DNA of 64,000 nucleotides from Tubiluchus corallicola (GCA_030141605.1 JAQGDQ010000031.1:124001-188000); one strand, 5' to 3'. Shown: positions 54,701 through 56,783, counted from the first letter of the stretch. The notes: generated from the letters alone by a model not told the origin. Numbers and translations are program-made.

Positions 54701-56783
54701 AAAATTCTACCAATTCAGTTGAGCTCTTCTTAGATAATAAGCTAGATCCTGGTCTTACCACAAACATCAGCACTGAGTATGCCTTGCCGTTGAATCCTGA
54801 ATCTCACTTTCGATTGTTGTGAATTGTGTTTGTAAAAATGGCTGAAATTATTGATTTTTTCAAAACAAAGAGTTGAATCGTGCACTAACTGCAGTCACTT
54901 ACTGATTTTCTAATTGTTATATTGGTCTAAAATTTGGGTTAAAATCTAAACTCAAATTTAAAAGGTTTGCTTAAATATTTATTTTTATAAGCATGTCCAA
55001 TAAATGAAATCTGGGTTGAAGATGTCTTATTGACTTTTATTTGTCTTTTAAGTTGCGATGTTGTGGAAGTGAAGGACCAGAAGACTGGGCGTATTCCAAG
55101 TATGCTAATCCAGATCAGACAATGCCCGTGGAAATAGGAGTTGATGAGGAGATAACAAGAGAATTGACGAAAGTTCCACCATCTTGTTGCACTGTGAACG
55201 CTTTTGAAGAATTGAAGGATAAATGCGGATGGAATGAAAGTTATACTGGGATAGATAAACCTCAGATCTTTGACTCTGTAAGTCCATCGTCAATCTATAT
55301 AAAAATACAAAGAGGGTATAGGAATAGTCAAGTATGACAGAAAATGAAAAAATATGAAAAACAAGATTAAAACCATTGGATGGACAAACTCTAAACTTAT
55401 GTTTGAACTAGTGTAAAATCGAAAAAAAGCCATTGCTGAGACAGAGAGAGAGAGAGAGAGAGAGAGAGAGAGAGAGAGAGAGAGAGAGAGAGAGAGAGAG
55501 AGAGAGAGAGAGAGAGAGAGAGAGAGAGAGAGAGAGAGAGAGAGAGAGAGAGAGAAGGGGATTTTGACTAAAAGGAGTTAGGTATACTGTGTATTTTATA
55601 TGTATTTTCATTTTTTGACTCAGGGTTGTCATTCCAAACTTGGCAAAATGCTCAAGGAGAATTTAAACATCATAATTGGTATAGCAGTCGGAATAGCAAT
55701 TTTACAGGTAAGATATTTAATTGAATTTTTAACAAACTTTAATACAGTTTTGCTTGATTTAAGATTGCGAAATTTAAAAAAATTGGCGCATTCTATTTGC
55801 CTTTTTGCCTTTATTACTTAATTTTATATCAACTTATGCCTCGCCTTCCTAGTTTTTCTCGCATGATGTTAATTTTTTTAATTTACTCATATTTATTTTG
55901 CAATTATTTGACTAATTTATTTTTACCATTTATGTTTCGTATAGATTTCTGCAATGGTTCTATCAATGGCACTTTGCTGTCTTGTAGGAAAGCAGGTCCA
56001 ATCTTGGGATTATTAAGGTCATCATAAATATCAGCTTTCCTGCCCATTATGCAAACCTGAATCACATTCAGCATGCTAGCATGTTAACAAATGGTTAACA
56101 TTTTTAAGCATAATCTTAACCATTAATCATAACCACATATTAACCATATTAAGAGCAAAGCTTTATTAACTAAAAAACACCAACATATATGTTGGAGTAG
56201 CTAATAAATTAGAATATTATTTAACAGAACTAACACCGATTTTGTTATATATTTTTGCATTGTTAACAAGCTCATAATAGCTGTTTTGCTGGGATATATT
56301 GGGTGGAACAGTAAAAATGTCCTGAACTTTGGACTACAAAACATTAGAAGCGCGTACACTACAAAGTTGAAATATCACAGCATGATATTGCAATACATTA
56401 ACTTCTGGCTGTGAAAGTTACAAGTTTATAGTTTTAGTAGTTTTTAAGTTATGGTTACGTTATGGTTTTGTTTTCTCTTACAATATTTTAGTCAAAAGTT
56501 CAGCACATTTTTTGAGCCGCCTGATATAATAATTTTAATGTGTTATACATATATATATTGAAAACATGTGAAAACCCTGTATTTAGGTGGTCACCATCGA
56601 TCTAAAAACAGTTGGTTCTTTAGGTTTCTGTACATTTTTCCATGTAATACTTTTTTTCTTGAGTTGAATATAAATGTGATTACTTTTTCATTTTTCTAGA
56701 TTTTGGGGATGGTTTTCTCAATGGTACTATTCATCAGTTTATGTCGCCATGGTTACGAGCCAGCTCCGTTAGAAAAATACTAA
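15695..56783 (+). CDS. Tetraspanin, CD9/TSPAN2/TSPAN4/TSPAN9-like, complete, alternative last exons
   Basis: A four-pass membrane organiser of the tetraspanin family, expected at the plasma membrane or endosomes. Coding exons: 15695-15760, 50838-50967, 51624-51697, 54043-54117, 54539-54637, 55053-55277, 55624-55707, then either 55945-56016 or 56700-56783, giving 274 or 278 residues. TM1 is about 13-35 (Asn18), TM2 56-76, TM3 88-111 (Glu102) and TM4 238-262. The large loop has CCG at 151-153, PPSCC at 190-194, Cys206 and Cys225: six cysteines, as in CD151/TSPAN4/TSPAN9-type loops rather than the four of CD9/CD81. Asn209 (NES) is a glycosylation sequon. Cys6, Cys9, Cys77 and Cys86 are candidate palmitoylation sites. 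The FW|LAG intron position is, to my recollection, shared with vertebrate tetraspanins. The orthologue cannot be settled without a tree. Confidence 0.95.
15761..18098. other. Intron 1, first 2.3 kb
   Basis: AT-rich sequence without recognised genes. The last 450 bases (from about 17640) show loose similarity in word usage (GGATT, TTGTTT, TTCTGG) to the tandem array that follows, perhaps very old copies. Confidence 0.45.
18099..18830. repeat. 52/62-bp tandem array, stop-free in all three + frames
   Basis: About 13 units, keyed by TCTGGATTATGGATACGCTC then TCCGGAAGGCGACTCTTGTT. The left units are about 62-63 bp and diverged. The inner units are 52 bp and almost identical, differing by a 10-bp deletion between TTTCA and the next TCTGG. 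A 62-bp unit recurs 270 bases apart (four 52-mers plus one 62-mer), so a 270-bp higher-order block was duplicated. The 52-bp unit has no stop in any forward frame, giving a 221-codon open frame (18161-18826) that I judge not to be a gene. Confidence 0.93.
18831..19544. other. Intron 1 segment without gene
   Basis: Mixed-composition sequence between the 52-bp array and a CT-rich tract. Nothing recognised on either strand. Confidence 0.5.
19545..19740. repeat. Imperfect (CT)n polypyrimidine tract
   Basis: Pyrimidine-rich, dominated by CTCTCT, TTTCT and CTGTCT words. The interruptions suggest an old microsatellite. The long open frames across it are composition artefacts. Confidence 0.9.
20891..21218 (+). 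mobile_element. Dispersed repeat family R1, copy 1
   Basis: Collinear with 29821-30184. Shared blocks include GCTAGTTAGACGGGCAC, AATTTGAAATTTGAA, GTAGCACTGTA, AAAATTATGTTAGTTTGTGA followed by TGTCACCAA, and GTTAATTAAG. This copy lacks about 40 bases present in copy 2 and contains a CRE-like TGACGTCA at 20955. No coding capacity; class unknown. Confidence 0.85.
21991..22050. repeat. Interstitial telomere-like (CCCTAA)n
   Basis: Seven to eight CCCTAA units with changes such as CCCTGA, CCGTAA and CTCTAA, i.e. TTAGGG on the other strand. This repeat type is general in metazoans other than arthropods and nematodes. It is immediately followed by repeat copy 22051-22265. Confidence 0.9.
22051..22265 (+). 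mobile_element. Telomere-repeat-linked dispersed repeat, copy 1
   Basis: Collinear with 22519-22732. Shared blocks are GCTTCACGAACTAATTAAAT, GTGGGGAATTGTAAA, CCGCAGGCGAGTCCCAA, CATAATCATCAGTG and GACTGCAAAGATTCAAAGAA. It starts directly at the end of the CCCTAA tract. Confidence 0.88.
22496..22732 (+). mobile_element. Telomere-repeat-linked dispersed repeat, copy 2
   Basis: The second copy lies 467 bases from the first. It too is preceded by degenerate telomere-like sequence (CTAACCCCAACTCTATCCC). Recurrence of telomeric DNA at the same edge implies that it belongs to the repeat unit, or that both inserted at or copied telomeric DNA. Confidence 0.85.
22733..23420. other. Intron 1 segment without gene
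   Basis: Unremarkable sequence between two repeat copies. No open frame of note. Confidence 0.5.
23421..23753 (+). mobile_element. Dispersed repeat family R2, copy 2
   Basis: Collinear with 2541-2854 (see that entry for shared blocks); both end at TAAAATAAACCCAACATGCT. Divergence is mainly substitutions and small indels, so both copies are old. Confidence 0.8.
23754..25640. other. Intron 1 segment without gene
   Basis: AT-rich. It has clustered TATATAGCCA/TAGCCAATA words at 24670-24740. The 81-codon open frame at 24099-24344 has no recognisable domain, and I do not call it. Confidence 0.5.
25641..25722. repeat. Tandem duplication (about 42 bp x 2)
   Basis: GAGTATCATCATTGTTGTTT, then CGTATCTGGTTTATC, occurs twice in a row with one substitution. 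Confidence 0.85.
26272..26483. repeat. Direct duplication (about 89-bp spacing)
   Basis: GGTTCGAACCTAAAATTA, then GATTCA and TTCAACATRCTAATT, occurs twice, and AAGCATTATTTCATTT also recurs. The GGTTCGAACC core resembles a tRNA B-box, but no tRNA fold is evident. Confidence 0.7.
26484..28708. other. Intron 1 segment without gene
   Basis: Unique-looking sequence. Short open frames such as 27641-27877 lack recognisable domains. Confidence 0.5.
28709..28789. repeat. Tandem duplication (about 40 bp x 2)
   Basis: TGAACTTTGAAACTGGGAAC followed by AGGAC occurs twice, with small differences. Confidence 0.8.
29639..29815 (+). mobile_element. CAT-repeat-linked dispersed repeat, copy 1
   Basis: A (CAT/CGT)n run followed by CCAATTGCTGCTCA, ATTCTAT, AAGTG-CGTTTAAC and a second CATCAT run. 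It is collinear with 49393-49580 and abuts R1 copy 2. CAT-rich tracts joined to a conserved segment recall RTE-type non-LTR 3' ends, but that assignment is tentative. Confidence 0.65.
29821..30184 (+). mobile_element. Dispersed repeat family R1, copy 2
   Basis: The longer copy of R1 (compare 20891-21218). It starts ACATGCATTTCGCTATTCGC and ends near TTTAATTATCA. It includes about 40 bases missing from copy 1. Confidence 0.85.
30655..30918. repeat. (CT)n polypyrimidine tract
   Basis: An almost pure CT run at 30790-30842 within a wider TTTCT/CTCTC tract, with CTGT repeats at its left edge. Ser/Leu-rich and Arg/Glu-rich open frames here are artefacts. Confidence 0.95.
30919..32771. other. Intron 1 segment without gene
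   Basis: No recognised gene or repeat family; AT-rich with a few poly-T runs. Confidence 0.5.
32772..32870 (+). mobile_element. Dispersed repeat family R3, copy 1
   Basis: Shares TTTTGACAT, TTTTTACGTGCWCTGTATAG, then GATTTTATT, AACTTYTCAAAT and TTTTTTGT in order with 34803-34905. Short and old; class unknown. Confidence 0.65.
33707..34182. mobile_element. hAT-like non-autonomous element with both ends
   Basis: The left end is CAGGGCTGGATTAT. The right end, read on the - strand, is CAGGGCCAGATTATGATTTT then GGGGCCCCTAG: imperfect terminal inverted repeats. The interior is homologous to 42918-43216 (GGCTAGGCGCCTCAAG-like, GGTAACATTTG, TTTAAAGAATTTGCAA, GTTTACTT, GCCATGTAAATG). No transposase frame remains. 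An 8-bp target duplication is not convincing. A microsatellite has grown just inside the left end. Confidence 0.72.
33722..33826. repeat. (AT)n(GT)n compound microsatellite
   Basis: An (AT)n run followed by about 35 GT units, lying within the hAT-like element directly after its terminal repeat. It is absent at the corresponding place in the copy at 42918. Confidence 0.97.
34803..34905 (+). mobile_element. Dispersed repeat family R3, copy 2
   Basis: Second copy of the R3 repeat (see 32772-32870), about 2 kb downstream in the same orientation. Confidence 0.65.
35514..35677. repeat. Long (CT)n microsatellite
   Basis: About 67 uninterrupted CT units (35514-35650), then interrupted CT-rich sequence. 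This is the longest pure dinucleotide run in the window. Confidence 0.98.
35678..39883. other. Intron 1 segment without gene
   Basis: 4.2 kb, mostly unique-looking. It includes a short poly-C run at 38231-38240. No gene seen. Confidence 0.5.
39884..39950. repeat. (TGY)n trinucleotide microsatellite
   Basis: TGT/TGC repeats grading into GGT repeats. The Ala/Val-rich open frame over it (39838-40080) reflects the repeat, not a gene. Confidence 0.93.
40722..40778. repeat. Tandem duplication (28-29 bp x 2)
   Basis: TTGTGATGAAGCCAAGTRAA followed by ATAAAACT occurs twice back to back. Confidence 0.9.
40952..41045. repeat. Tetranucleotide microsatellite (TTCT/TTCG/TTGC)
   Basis: TTTC repeats shift to TTCG and then TTGC/CTTG repeats, consistent with slippage plus substitution in a single array. 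Confidence 0.92.
41046..42917. other. Intron 1 segment with two CRE-like palindromes
   Basis: No gene is recognised. TGACGTCA occurs at 41344-41351 and 42345-42352. A short C8 run occurs near 41527. Confidence 0.5.
42918..43216. mobile_element. hAT-like non-autonomous element, second copy
   Basis: The left end is CAGGAGCCGGATTA; the right end on the - strand is CAAGGCAAGATTATGA. The interior is collinear with 33707-34182 but lacks its microsatellite. The flanking octamers CTCGTGGG and CCTGTGGA agree at five of eight positions, a possible decayed target duplication. Confidence 0.65.
43217..47957. other. Intron 1 segment without gene
   Basis: 4.7 kb of AT-rich sequence. A phrase GGGCAGGCAGAATTC at 45707 recurs at 57731, suggesting shared repeat fragments. 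No open frame here is convincing. Confidence 0.5.
47958..48031. repeat. (GT)n microsatellite
   Basis: About 35 GT units with a few GC interruptions near the right end. The His/Thr-repeat frame on the other strand is an artefact. Confidence 0.97.
49393..49580 (+). mobile_element. CAT-repeat-linked dispersed repeat, copy 2
   Basis: A (CAT)n run, then GCCCAATTGCTGCTCAGATT, AAGTGGCGTTTAACGAAG, then a second CAT/CACCA-rich run. It is collinear with 29639-29815. Confidence 0.68.
49665..49803. repeat. (GA)n polypurine tract
   Basis: GAGAGA with AAAG and GCAA interruptions and a small GT insert near its right end. It is transcribed as purine in the tetraspanin pre-mRNA. Confidence 0.96.
50173..50540. 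repeat. 38-bp tandem array
   Basis: Nine to ten units of 38 bp, keyed by ATTTCACTTAAGCTGAAAGG then TTACCATACCTCACTTGT. The inner units are nearly identical and the first unit is diverged. TTTCA and TGAAA within each unit can form a short hairpin around CTTAAGC. The array ends about 300 bases upstream of exon 2. Confidence 0.95.
50700..50775 (-). mobile_element. tRNA-like SINE fragment (candidate)
   Basis: Read on the - strand, GGTTCGAATACC matches a Pol III B-box and is preceded by CGTGACTGCCGATGCAGCGG, as in tRNA-derived SINE heads. The A-box part is poorly preserved, so this is a fragment. Confidence 0.4.
50838..50967 (+). CDS. Tetraspanin exon 2
   Basis: Acceptor TTTACAG and donor GTAAGT. 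It encodes LAGLGILGVAIWLRFDPETE, the rest of TM1 and the short loop, then RYYTIAYILMGVG at the start of TM2. It ends after one base of a Gly codon. Confidence 0.95.
51624..51697 (+). CDS. Tetraspanin exon 3
   Basis: 74 nt, with acceptor TTGACAG and donor GTAAGT. It encodes GGLMTVVGFLGCYGAYQESR then CLLIT: the end of TM2 and the inner loop with the family signature GFLGCxGAxxES. Confidence 0.96.
51698..54042 (+). other. Tetraspanin intron 3 (2.3 kb)
   Basis: AT-rich sequence between exons 3 and 4 with no recognised element. Short open frames on both strands lack any domain. Confidence 0.7.
54043..54117 (+). CDS. Tetraspanin exon 4
   Basis: 25 codons in phase 0, with acceptor TTTGCAG and donor GTAAGA. 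It encodes FFLMLIVVLVAEIGGGVYAY then QNKEQ, which is TM3 with its conserved Glu. The acceptor fits the polypyrimidine context; a short unrelated reading frame overlaps it in another frame. Confidence 0.95.
54539..54637 (+). CDS. Tetraspanin exon 5
   Basis: 33 codons in phase 0, with acceptor TTCACAG and donor GTGAGT. It encodes the first helices of the large extracellular loop (VMDLVKDMMKQTIQYEYDKN, then NFINWIQKK). Confidence 0.94.
55053..55277 (+). CDS. Tetraspanin exon 6, cysteine-rich loop
   Basis: 75 codons in phase 0, with acceptor TTTTAAG and donor GTAAGT. It carries LRCCGSEGPEDW, KVPPSCC and KCGWNESYTG: five of the six loop cysteines and the glycosylation sequon. The CCG motif defines the family. 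Confidence 0.96.
55440..55556. repeat. Long (GA)n microsatellite in intron 6
   Basis: About 57 GA units, nearly uninterrupted, ending about 70 bases upstream of the exon 7 acceptor. The Ser/Leu repeat frame on the - strand is an artefact. Confidence 0.98.
55624..55707 (+). CDS. Tetraspanin exon 7
   Basis: 28 codons in phase 0, with acceptor GACTCAG and donor GTAAGA. It encodes GCHSKLGKMLKENLNIIIGI then AVGIAILQ: the final loop cysteine (Gly-Cys pair) and the first half of TM4. A (GA)n tract ends about 70 bases upstream of the acceptor. Confidence 0.95.
55945..56016 (+). CDS. Tetraspanin alternative last exon 8a
   Basis: Acceptor CGTATAG, phase 0, 23 codons and stop TAA. It encodes ISAMVLSMALCCLVGK then QVQSWDY: the second half of TM4 with a juxtamembrane Cys pair and a short tail. 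A poly(A) signal follows at 56203. Resemblance to exon 8b (I-x-x-MVxSMxL at the same position) indicates exon duplication and mutually exclusive use. A GTAGGA inside the exon could act as a cryptic donor. Confidence 0.8.
   Translation: MSAMVLSMALCCLVGKQVQSWDY
56203..56208 (+). terminator. Poly(A) signal candidate for the exon 8a transcript
   Basis: AATAAA 187 bases after the exon 8a stop and about 490 bases before exon 8b. Its position would allow a short transcript ending on exon 8a. Confidence 0.45.
56700..56783 (+). CDS. Tetraspanin alternative last exon 8b
   Basis: Acceptor TTTCTAG, phase 0, 27 codons and stop TAA at 56781-56783. It encodes ILGMVFSMVLFISLC then RHGYEPAPLEKY. The ILGMVFSM segment is the closer match to CD9 and TSPAN9 family ends, so this is probably the ancestral last exon. 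The tail has one Cys at the membrane boundary. The Tyr motif YEPA lacks the bulky last residue of a classical YxxPhi sorting signal. Confidence 0.92.
   Translation: MLGMVFSMVLFISLCRHGYEPAPLEKY

Follow-up and report, generated by a model that had tools for sequence, protein, structure and literature searches.

Does a single tetraspanin gene end in two different ways? This question is raised by a stretch of 64,000 nucleotides (nt) from Tubiluchus corallicola (C1677:124001-188000; hereafter the window), which holds a tetraspanin gene called A here. Tetraspanins act as organisers of membrane domains, and information for sorting and binding resides in their short tails. A sequence-only reading of the window had proposed that exon 7 of this gene can be joined to either of two last exons, 8a and 8b, each of which supplies the end of the fourth transmembrane helix (TM4) and a cytoplasmic tail of its own. 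Our analysis indicates that gene A, a tetraspanin gene resembling those of CD9 and CD81, probably has a pair of homologous alternative last exons downstream of its last intron, and that the use of 8a is predicted to be regulated. The window belongs to a genome assembly of 343.5 Mb in 2344 contigs, and positions without a contig name are those of the window.

Gene A lies on the plus strand and has eight exons (Table 1), through all of which the reading frame is continuous. Exon 1 was newly added here. When GT-preceding phase-0 peptides in window positions 1-50837 and in the 20 kb upstream were scanned, it scored 59 against the N-terminus of CD9/CD81, and the runner-up scored 21. Introns 1-6 measure 35077, 656, 2345, 421, 415, and 346 nt, and the last intron is 237 nt long if it ends at 8a and 992 nt long if it ends at 8b. 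GT is present at each of the seven donors, which carry 6-8 of 9 consensus bases. Six of the seven introns are in phase 0 and one is in phase 1. The product has 274 residues with 8a or 278 residues with 8b. These two forms match PF00335 with 183.8 and 186.4 bits (curated cut-off 32.1), and the alignments span positions 1-224 and 1-223, respectively, of the 225 in the profile. Hydropathy was computed for TM4 only, which is hydrophobic with either exon (mean Kyte-Doolittle values of 2.42 and 2.59 over 21 residues). The closest solved structures, in a comparison limited to PDB entries, are CD81 (2.1e-32) and CD9 (5.1e-32). Judged from these matches, gene A is probably a CD9/CD81-like tetraspanin gene. 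The large loop of CD9 and CD81 contains four cysteines. Gene A differs in having six, including those of the CCG and PPSCC motifs, and in having two alternative last exons.

The coordinates, phases, peptides, and stops that had been proposed for the two ends are all correct. The phase-0 end of exon 7 is at 55707. Exon 8a starts at 55945 (ISAMVLSMALCCLVGKQVQSWDY) with its stop at 56014-56016, and 8b starts at 56700 (ILGMVFSMVLFISLCRHGYEPAPLEKY) with its stop at 56781-56783, such that both share one donor and one phase and each has its own stop. The common framework I-x-x-M-V-x-S-M-x-L is also real, and the first 11 codons of the two exons agree at 24 of 33 nt. Aligned locally over their initial 45 nt, the exons reach a score of 30, and the maximum in 200 shuffles is 21. 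A duplication tract was looked for in the flanks by the same comparison and was not found: there is no likeness in the 200 nt upstream (23 of 200 shuffles reach the score) or in the 200 nt past codon 11 (157 of 200).

The main evidence that 8a is homologous to TM4 comes from its fit to the family. Frames that are led by AG, are in phase 0, and are terminated by a stop were scored against a TM4 reference set from which 8a had been left out. In the 992-nt intron before 8b, the best such frame is 8a itself, with a score of 44. None of 2000 first-order Markov resamples of this intron reaches 44, and their maximum is 32. Elsewhere, the peaks are at most 13 in introns 2-6, in the 1.8-kb 3' flank, and on the reverse strand of the last intron, 20 in intron 1, 17 in what remains of the window 3' of 8b, and 21 on the whole minus strand. 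The Pfam profile supports the same conclusion. The core of exons 1-7 alone scores 170.9 bits, from which the gain is 12.9 bits with 8a and 15.5 bits with 8b. Three AG-led intronic decoys, which are three of the four other frames listed for the last intron in the TM4 scan, reach 175.2, 172.3, and 171.8 bits, that is, gains of 4.3, 1.4, and 0.9 bits. Against TM4 of CD9/CD81, 8a scores 44 and 8b scores 37. When 8b was randomly mutated to the divergence of 8a, the score of 8a was reached in 2 of 20000 trials and a stop was gained in 6547 of 20000; this simulation of neutral decay loads all change on one branch and is a rough guide. The rarity with which decay reaches the score of 8a argues that selection has maintained the exon over a large part of its history. 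The family scores and the Pfam gains bear out the earlier proposal that this tetraspanin gene has a pair of homologous last exons, either of which would complete TM4 and add a tail of its own.

Is gene A alone in this arrangement? The genome contains 26 PF00335 matches, and six genes (A-F) had their last exons examined. Paralog B lies on the minus strand of C1280 and is approximately 46.6% identical to A over 219 aligned residues in exons 2-7. It has two terminal exons behind exon 7, the end of which is near 96151. The proximal one, FLGAILTVILILVISQEKQREKYYY at 95826, has a strong acceptor (8.3), and the distal one, FLGMTLAIVLCCSIRKDGYELANDDSAYTYKY, is at 94035. Three AATAAA motifs are found between them, the first at 95380. 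The Pfam gain in B is 8.0 bits with the proximal exon and 15.2 bits with the distal one. The recurrence of this layout in B argues against 8a being a stray duplicate. Paralog C, with a single terminal exon found (FAGVVLTIVVCCSIRHHGYQLASTDSVYIYKD), is strongly diverged, with identities of approximately 31.3% to A and 42.7% to B over exons 2-7. All these identities are approximate, since the B and C proteins were assembled from exon matches, the borders of B exon 5 are provisional, and C is incomplete. One terminal exon each was found in D, E, and F, which like C contain introns; that of E scores 26, and that of F is weak, scoring 20 with a rival frame of 18 in the same intron. For D and F, the sequence was read just 332-333 nt past the start of the terminal exon, and a more distal exon could lie beyond. 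The double end is therefore present in two of the six genes examined, A and B, and the single ends of C-F indicate that the scan does not yield double ends everywhere. A further locus, L054, was left out of the count, as the scan of it stopped short of a terminal exon.

Two further observations concern the family in this genome. B and C are arranged in tandem on the same strand (L050, L051, and L052; C1280:79001-102500, minus). Loci L005 (C907) and L006 (C1569) contain an identical tetraspanin-like open frame of 287 residues, which may reflect a recent duplication or haplotypes that were not collapsed.

Several observations speak against two functional endings in gene A. The first concerns the acceptors, both of which had been described as good. 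Scored with a small matrix of 19 acceptors of this gene family (leave-one-out), the description suits 8b, at 6.3, a value that 3.4% of AG sites in the window also attain, but not 8a, whose -3.1 is the lowest of the 19 and is equalled at 35.7% of the AG sites in the window. Second, the direct likeness of 8a and 8b over 12 residues is modest (score 21). The best other AG-led frames of the window reach 20 (plus strand) and 21 (minus strand) in this comparison, and frames without AG reach 29; the strong signal for 8a comes from the TM4 references of the family, not from its direct likeness to 8b. Third, the proximal exon of B, taken alone, is only moderately significant (score 28, reached by 13 of 2000 resamples), and the last intron of C holds no proximal exon (best score 13, reached by 703 of 2000 resamples). 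Fourth, the proximal tails of A and B show no clear kinship (score 11, 100 of 2000 permutations), and the TM4 half of 8a scores 31 against the distal exon of B and 7 against its proximal exon. One-to-one orthology of the two proximal exons is thus unsupported, and since they are not demonstrably orthologous, the shared layout may have arisen twice. One more point of this kind, on the poly(A) signal, is taken up below.

The weak acceptor, the lack of a detected proximal exon in C, and the single terminal exons seen in D, E, and F would all fit a tandem duplicate that is dying or already dead, with 8a a pseudo-exon of intact appearance and 8b alone spliced. We regard this as unlikely. The frame of 8a is open and in phase 0, it exceeds 8b in its match to TM4 of CD9/CD81, and decay of 8b in the simulation almost never produces such a score. 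Furthermore, the proximal acceptor is strong in B, whose layout is the same, and weak acceptors are also seen on other modelled exons of the family, such as B6 (-0.3) and C7 (-0.9).

The two exons had been called mutually exclusive. Both end in stops and are terminal coding exons, for which "alternative last exons" is the better term. This preference follows PMC3228551, where "mutually exclusive" is reserved for internal clusters, whose exons are flanked by shared downstream exons, and terminal pairs are treated as cases of multiple polyadenylation (poly(A)) sites or of differential exon inclusion. The use of 8a as an internal or poison exon was considered and is not favoured, as the best donor in 55945-56260 has only 5 of 9 consensus matches. 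As to poly(A) signals, an AATAAA is indeed present between the exons at 56203, where a signal for 8a would plausibly lie, but its proposed coupling to exon choice is unsupported, because approximately one such motif is expected in the 740 nt between 8a and 8b at the density of the window; this also counts against the double end.

Proximal terminal exons with weak acceptors can be transcript sinks. Both exons of gene A might accordingly be used with no meaning for the protein, the premature splicing and polyadenylation at 8a tuning the amount of 8b. This general behaviour of such exons counts for the explanation, and so does the unlikeness of the 8a and B proximal tails, which is unexpected if the tails are what matters. 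A pure sink, however, needs no particular fit to the family, and the TM4 half of 8a suits the family about as well as that of 8b. We consider such a sink improbable.

The double end could also be an artefact, with 8a or 8b derived from another tetraspanin, be it a merged neighbour, or from a misassembled haplotype. The number of contigs in this draft genome leaves some room for such an error. The 1251-bp stretch with both exons was compared with the genome, and 40 of 567 candidate matches were scored. Among these 40, both exons are present at its own locus alone; the remaining 39 are confined to a repeat at 56293-56457, with 79-87% identity, and an assembly duplicate of the stretch is not favoured. 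Gene A sits on a contig of 1,057,687 bp, where all 8 matches of the tetraspanin search are exons of gene A itself. An artefact of this kind is hardly credible.

With two homologous last exons remaining the probable arrangement, the next question is what the choice between them would change. Exon 8a carries a juxtamembrane cysteine pair and the short tail KQVQSWDY, and 8b carries a single cysteine and the tail GYEPAPLEKY. The end of 8a resembles CD9/CD81 in TM4 and in the cysteine pair. The tail of 8b (RHGYEPAPLEKY) is related to the tails encoded by the terminal exon in C (0 of 2000 permutations) and by the distal exon in B (7 of 2000), and a GY[EQ]xA distal tail is common to A, B, and C. B has the cysteine pair in its distal exon and C has it in its terminal exon, but in A it is the proximal exon that carries the pair; the proximal exon of B has no cysteine and a poly-Tyr end. 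The earlier description of the tails, with a pair in 8a and one cysteine in 8b, is thus accurate, but a fixed palmitoylation switch is not upheld, since B reverses the arrangement of A. This change of position between the two genes weakens a simple palmitoylation-switch reading. Membrane-proximal palmitoylation is called a defining feature of tetraspanins in PMC5936783.

The cysteine pair and the GY[EQ]xA tail occur together in one exon in both paralogs, the distal one of B and the terminal one of C. This suggests a splitting of features in A. Gene A may tentatively be viewed as having divided ancestral features between its two exons, the cysteine pair going to 8a and the GYExA tail to 8b, with splicing picking one half; the second exon of B would then be a separate innovation. 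As for the history of the double end, it would either be old, lost in C, and fast-diverged, or have arisen twice.

Sorting and binding motifs were also inspected in the two tails. The YxxPhi motif, as in CD63, requires a bulky hydrophobic residue three positions after the tyrosine. It is absent from both tails, as 8b reads GYEPA and 8a ends in WDY. Since YEPA has no such residue, an altered destination of the two tail forms is something we infer only. The earlier suggestion of different PDZ-ligand classes for the two tails finds no support here. Classical PDZ ligands are hydrophobic-ended, and WDY and EKY, both Tyr-ended, are not of that kind.

Alternative last exons that change a membrane-targeting end are known from other proteins. 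In KRAS (exons 4A/4B), and also in CDC42, the choice of last exon decides which membrane-targeting tail the protein receives (PMC9882654). As in gene A, one gene has tandem homologous last exons, one of the tails has a palmitoylatable cysteine, and the membrane-targeting end changes. RAS differs in being a lipid-anchored GTPase, whereas in gene A the alternative exon completes a transmembrane helix. Moreover, switching is established in KRAS and predicted from sequence in gene A. Human capping protein beta, a cytoskeletal protein and not a tetraspanin, shares homologous 3'-terminal exons with gene A, and these are tied to different poly(A) sites (PMC3228551).

Among tetraspanins, isoforms of one protein that differ at a cytoplasmic end are seen in C. 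elegans TSP-14. TSP-14A and TSP-14B are located at apical and endosomal membranes versus basolateral membranes (PMC8827444). Their difference is 24 N-terminal residues, whereas that in gene A comes from duplicated last exons. Splicing also alters CD82 around TM4, as KAI1-SP loses a 28-residue exon at the border of the large loop and TM4 (PMC5814219). Splice variants of CD82, TSPAN32, TSPAN17, and TSPAN31 are named in PMC2650405. Unlike the situation in gene A, no second last exon is mentioned for known tetraspanin variants in the excerpts of PMC5814219 and PMC2650405. PMC5440512 lists an Echinococcus tetraspanin with splicing events, the type of which was not readable in the excerpt. Homologous alternative last exons were not reported for any tetraspanin in the literature searched, which is not proof of absence. 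Alternative last exons are known as a kind, and none was found described in tetraspanins in these sources. A search for relatives outside the genome gave 2 pattern matches in viral contigs and 56 in genome contigs, none confirmed by tblastn, in collections without animal genomes.

According to PMC2650405, tetraspanin introns 1-6 are ancient and in phase 0, and CD9, CD81, and TSPAN2 have an extra intron 1a, described as conserved from tunicates through vertebrates. Gene A is similar to these three in having six phase-0 introns and a frame-breaking one between the first two, a likeness of number and phase only. The phase-1 intron at 50968-51623, located at the start of TM2, is possibly the same as intron 1a. 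If the positions match and the animal is no chordate, intron 1a would be older than stated.

How could one ending be chosen over the other? Exon 7 would be joined either to 8a, the proximal exon with the weak acceptor, in which case cleavage would precede 8b, or to 8b, the distal exon with the strong acceptor. The strong distal acceptor would be expected to outcompete the weak proximal one, making 8b the default. The 8a form would need an activator or slow transcription past 8a, and 8a would probably represent a regulated isoform restricted to certain cell types or stages. The extracellular part would be constant, and the end of TM4 and the tail would be swapped. In the predicted proteins, the 8a form retains the CD9/CD81-like cysteine pair and its short tail, and the 8b form has one cysteine and a tail akin to those of the B distal and C terminal exons. 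The likely effect would be different lipidation and different cytoplasmic adaptors, and hence a different membrane domain or partner.

Table 1. Exons of gene A and neighbouring elements in the window.
Feature	Position	Strand	Remarks
Exon 1, coding part, MALKGCMRCLKYTMFVMNLLFW	15695..15760	+	start context CCACCATGG; donor TGG/GTAAGT (exon/intron)
Exon 2, TM1 end, small loop, and TM2 start	50838..50967	+	end phase 1
Exon 3, TM2	51624..51697	+	
Exon 4, TM3	54043..54117	+	
Exon 5, large loop, helix A region	54539..54637	+	
Exon 6, large loop with CCG and PPSCC	55053..55277	+	
Exon 7, large-loop end and first half of TM4	55624..55707	+	donor CAG/GTAAGA (exon/intron), phase 0
Exon 8a, proximal alternative last exon (predicted), ISAMVLSMALCC LVGKQVQSWDY stop	55945..56016	+	weak acceptor TCGTATAG
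AATAAA 187 nt past the 8a stop, a possible poly(A) signal for that exon	56203..56208	+	
Interspersed-repeat copy between 8a and 8b	56293..56457	n/a	
Exon 8b, distal alternative last exon (predicted), ILGMVFSMVLFI SLCRHGYEPAPLEKY stop	56700..56783	+	good acceptor TTTTTCTAG
AATAAA, first one 3' of 8b	57623..57628	+	more at 57748/57752 and 58113

Two simple repeats lie in the introns of gene A. A 118-bp GA repeat at 55438-55555 is located in intron 6, approximately 70 nt upstream of exon 7, and variation in its length could affect splicing. In intron 1, approximately 300 nt before exon 2, a 38-bp tandem repeat is present at 50174-50538 with 9.6 copies and 96% match. Elsewhere in the window, an exon of NAT10 (RNA cytidine acetyltransferase) is found at 1495-1797 on the plus strand (Pfam 9e-07; PDB match 5.7e-38), and a TTAGGG-type array is found at 21990-22045. 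Genome-wide, the TTAGGG-type 30-mer has 63 exact matches in forward and 45 in reverse orientation, counted with overlaps, some of them within 1-4 kb of contig starts, which may point to an animal outside the arthropods.

If 8a is unused, it would be an ordinary duplicated exon. Otherwise, the constant extracellular part combined with a swapped TM4 end and tail would make gene A a natural, in-animal test of tail function. Furthermore, two such paralogs, in which the cysteine pair switches sides, would offer a direct test of how duplicated exons divide an ancestral function.

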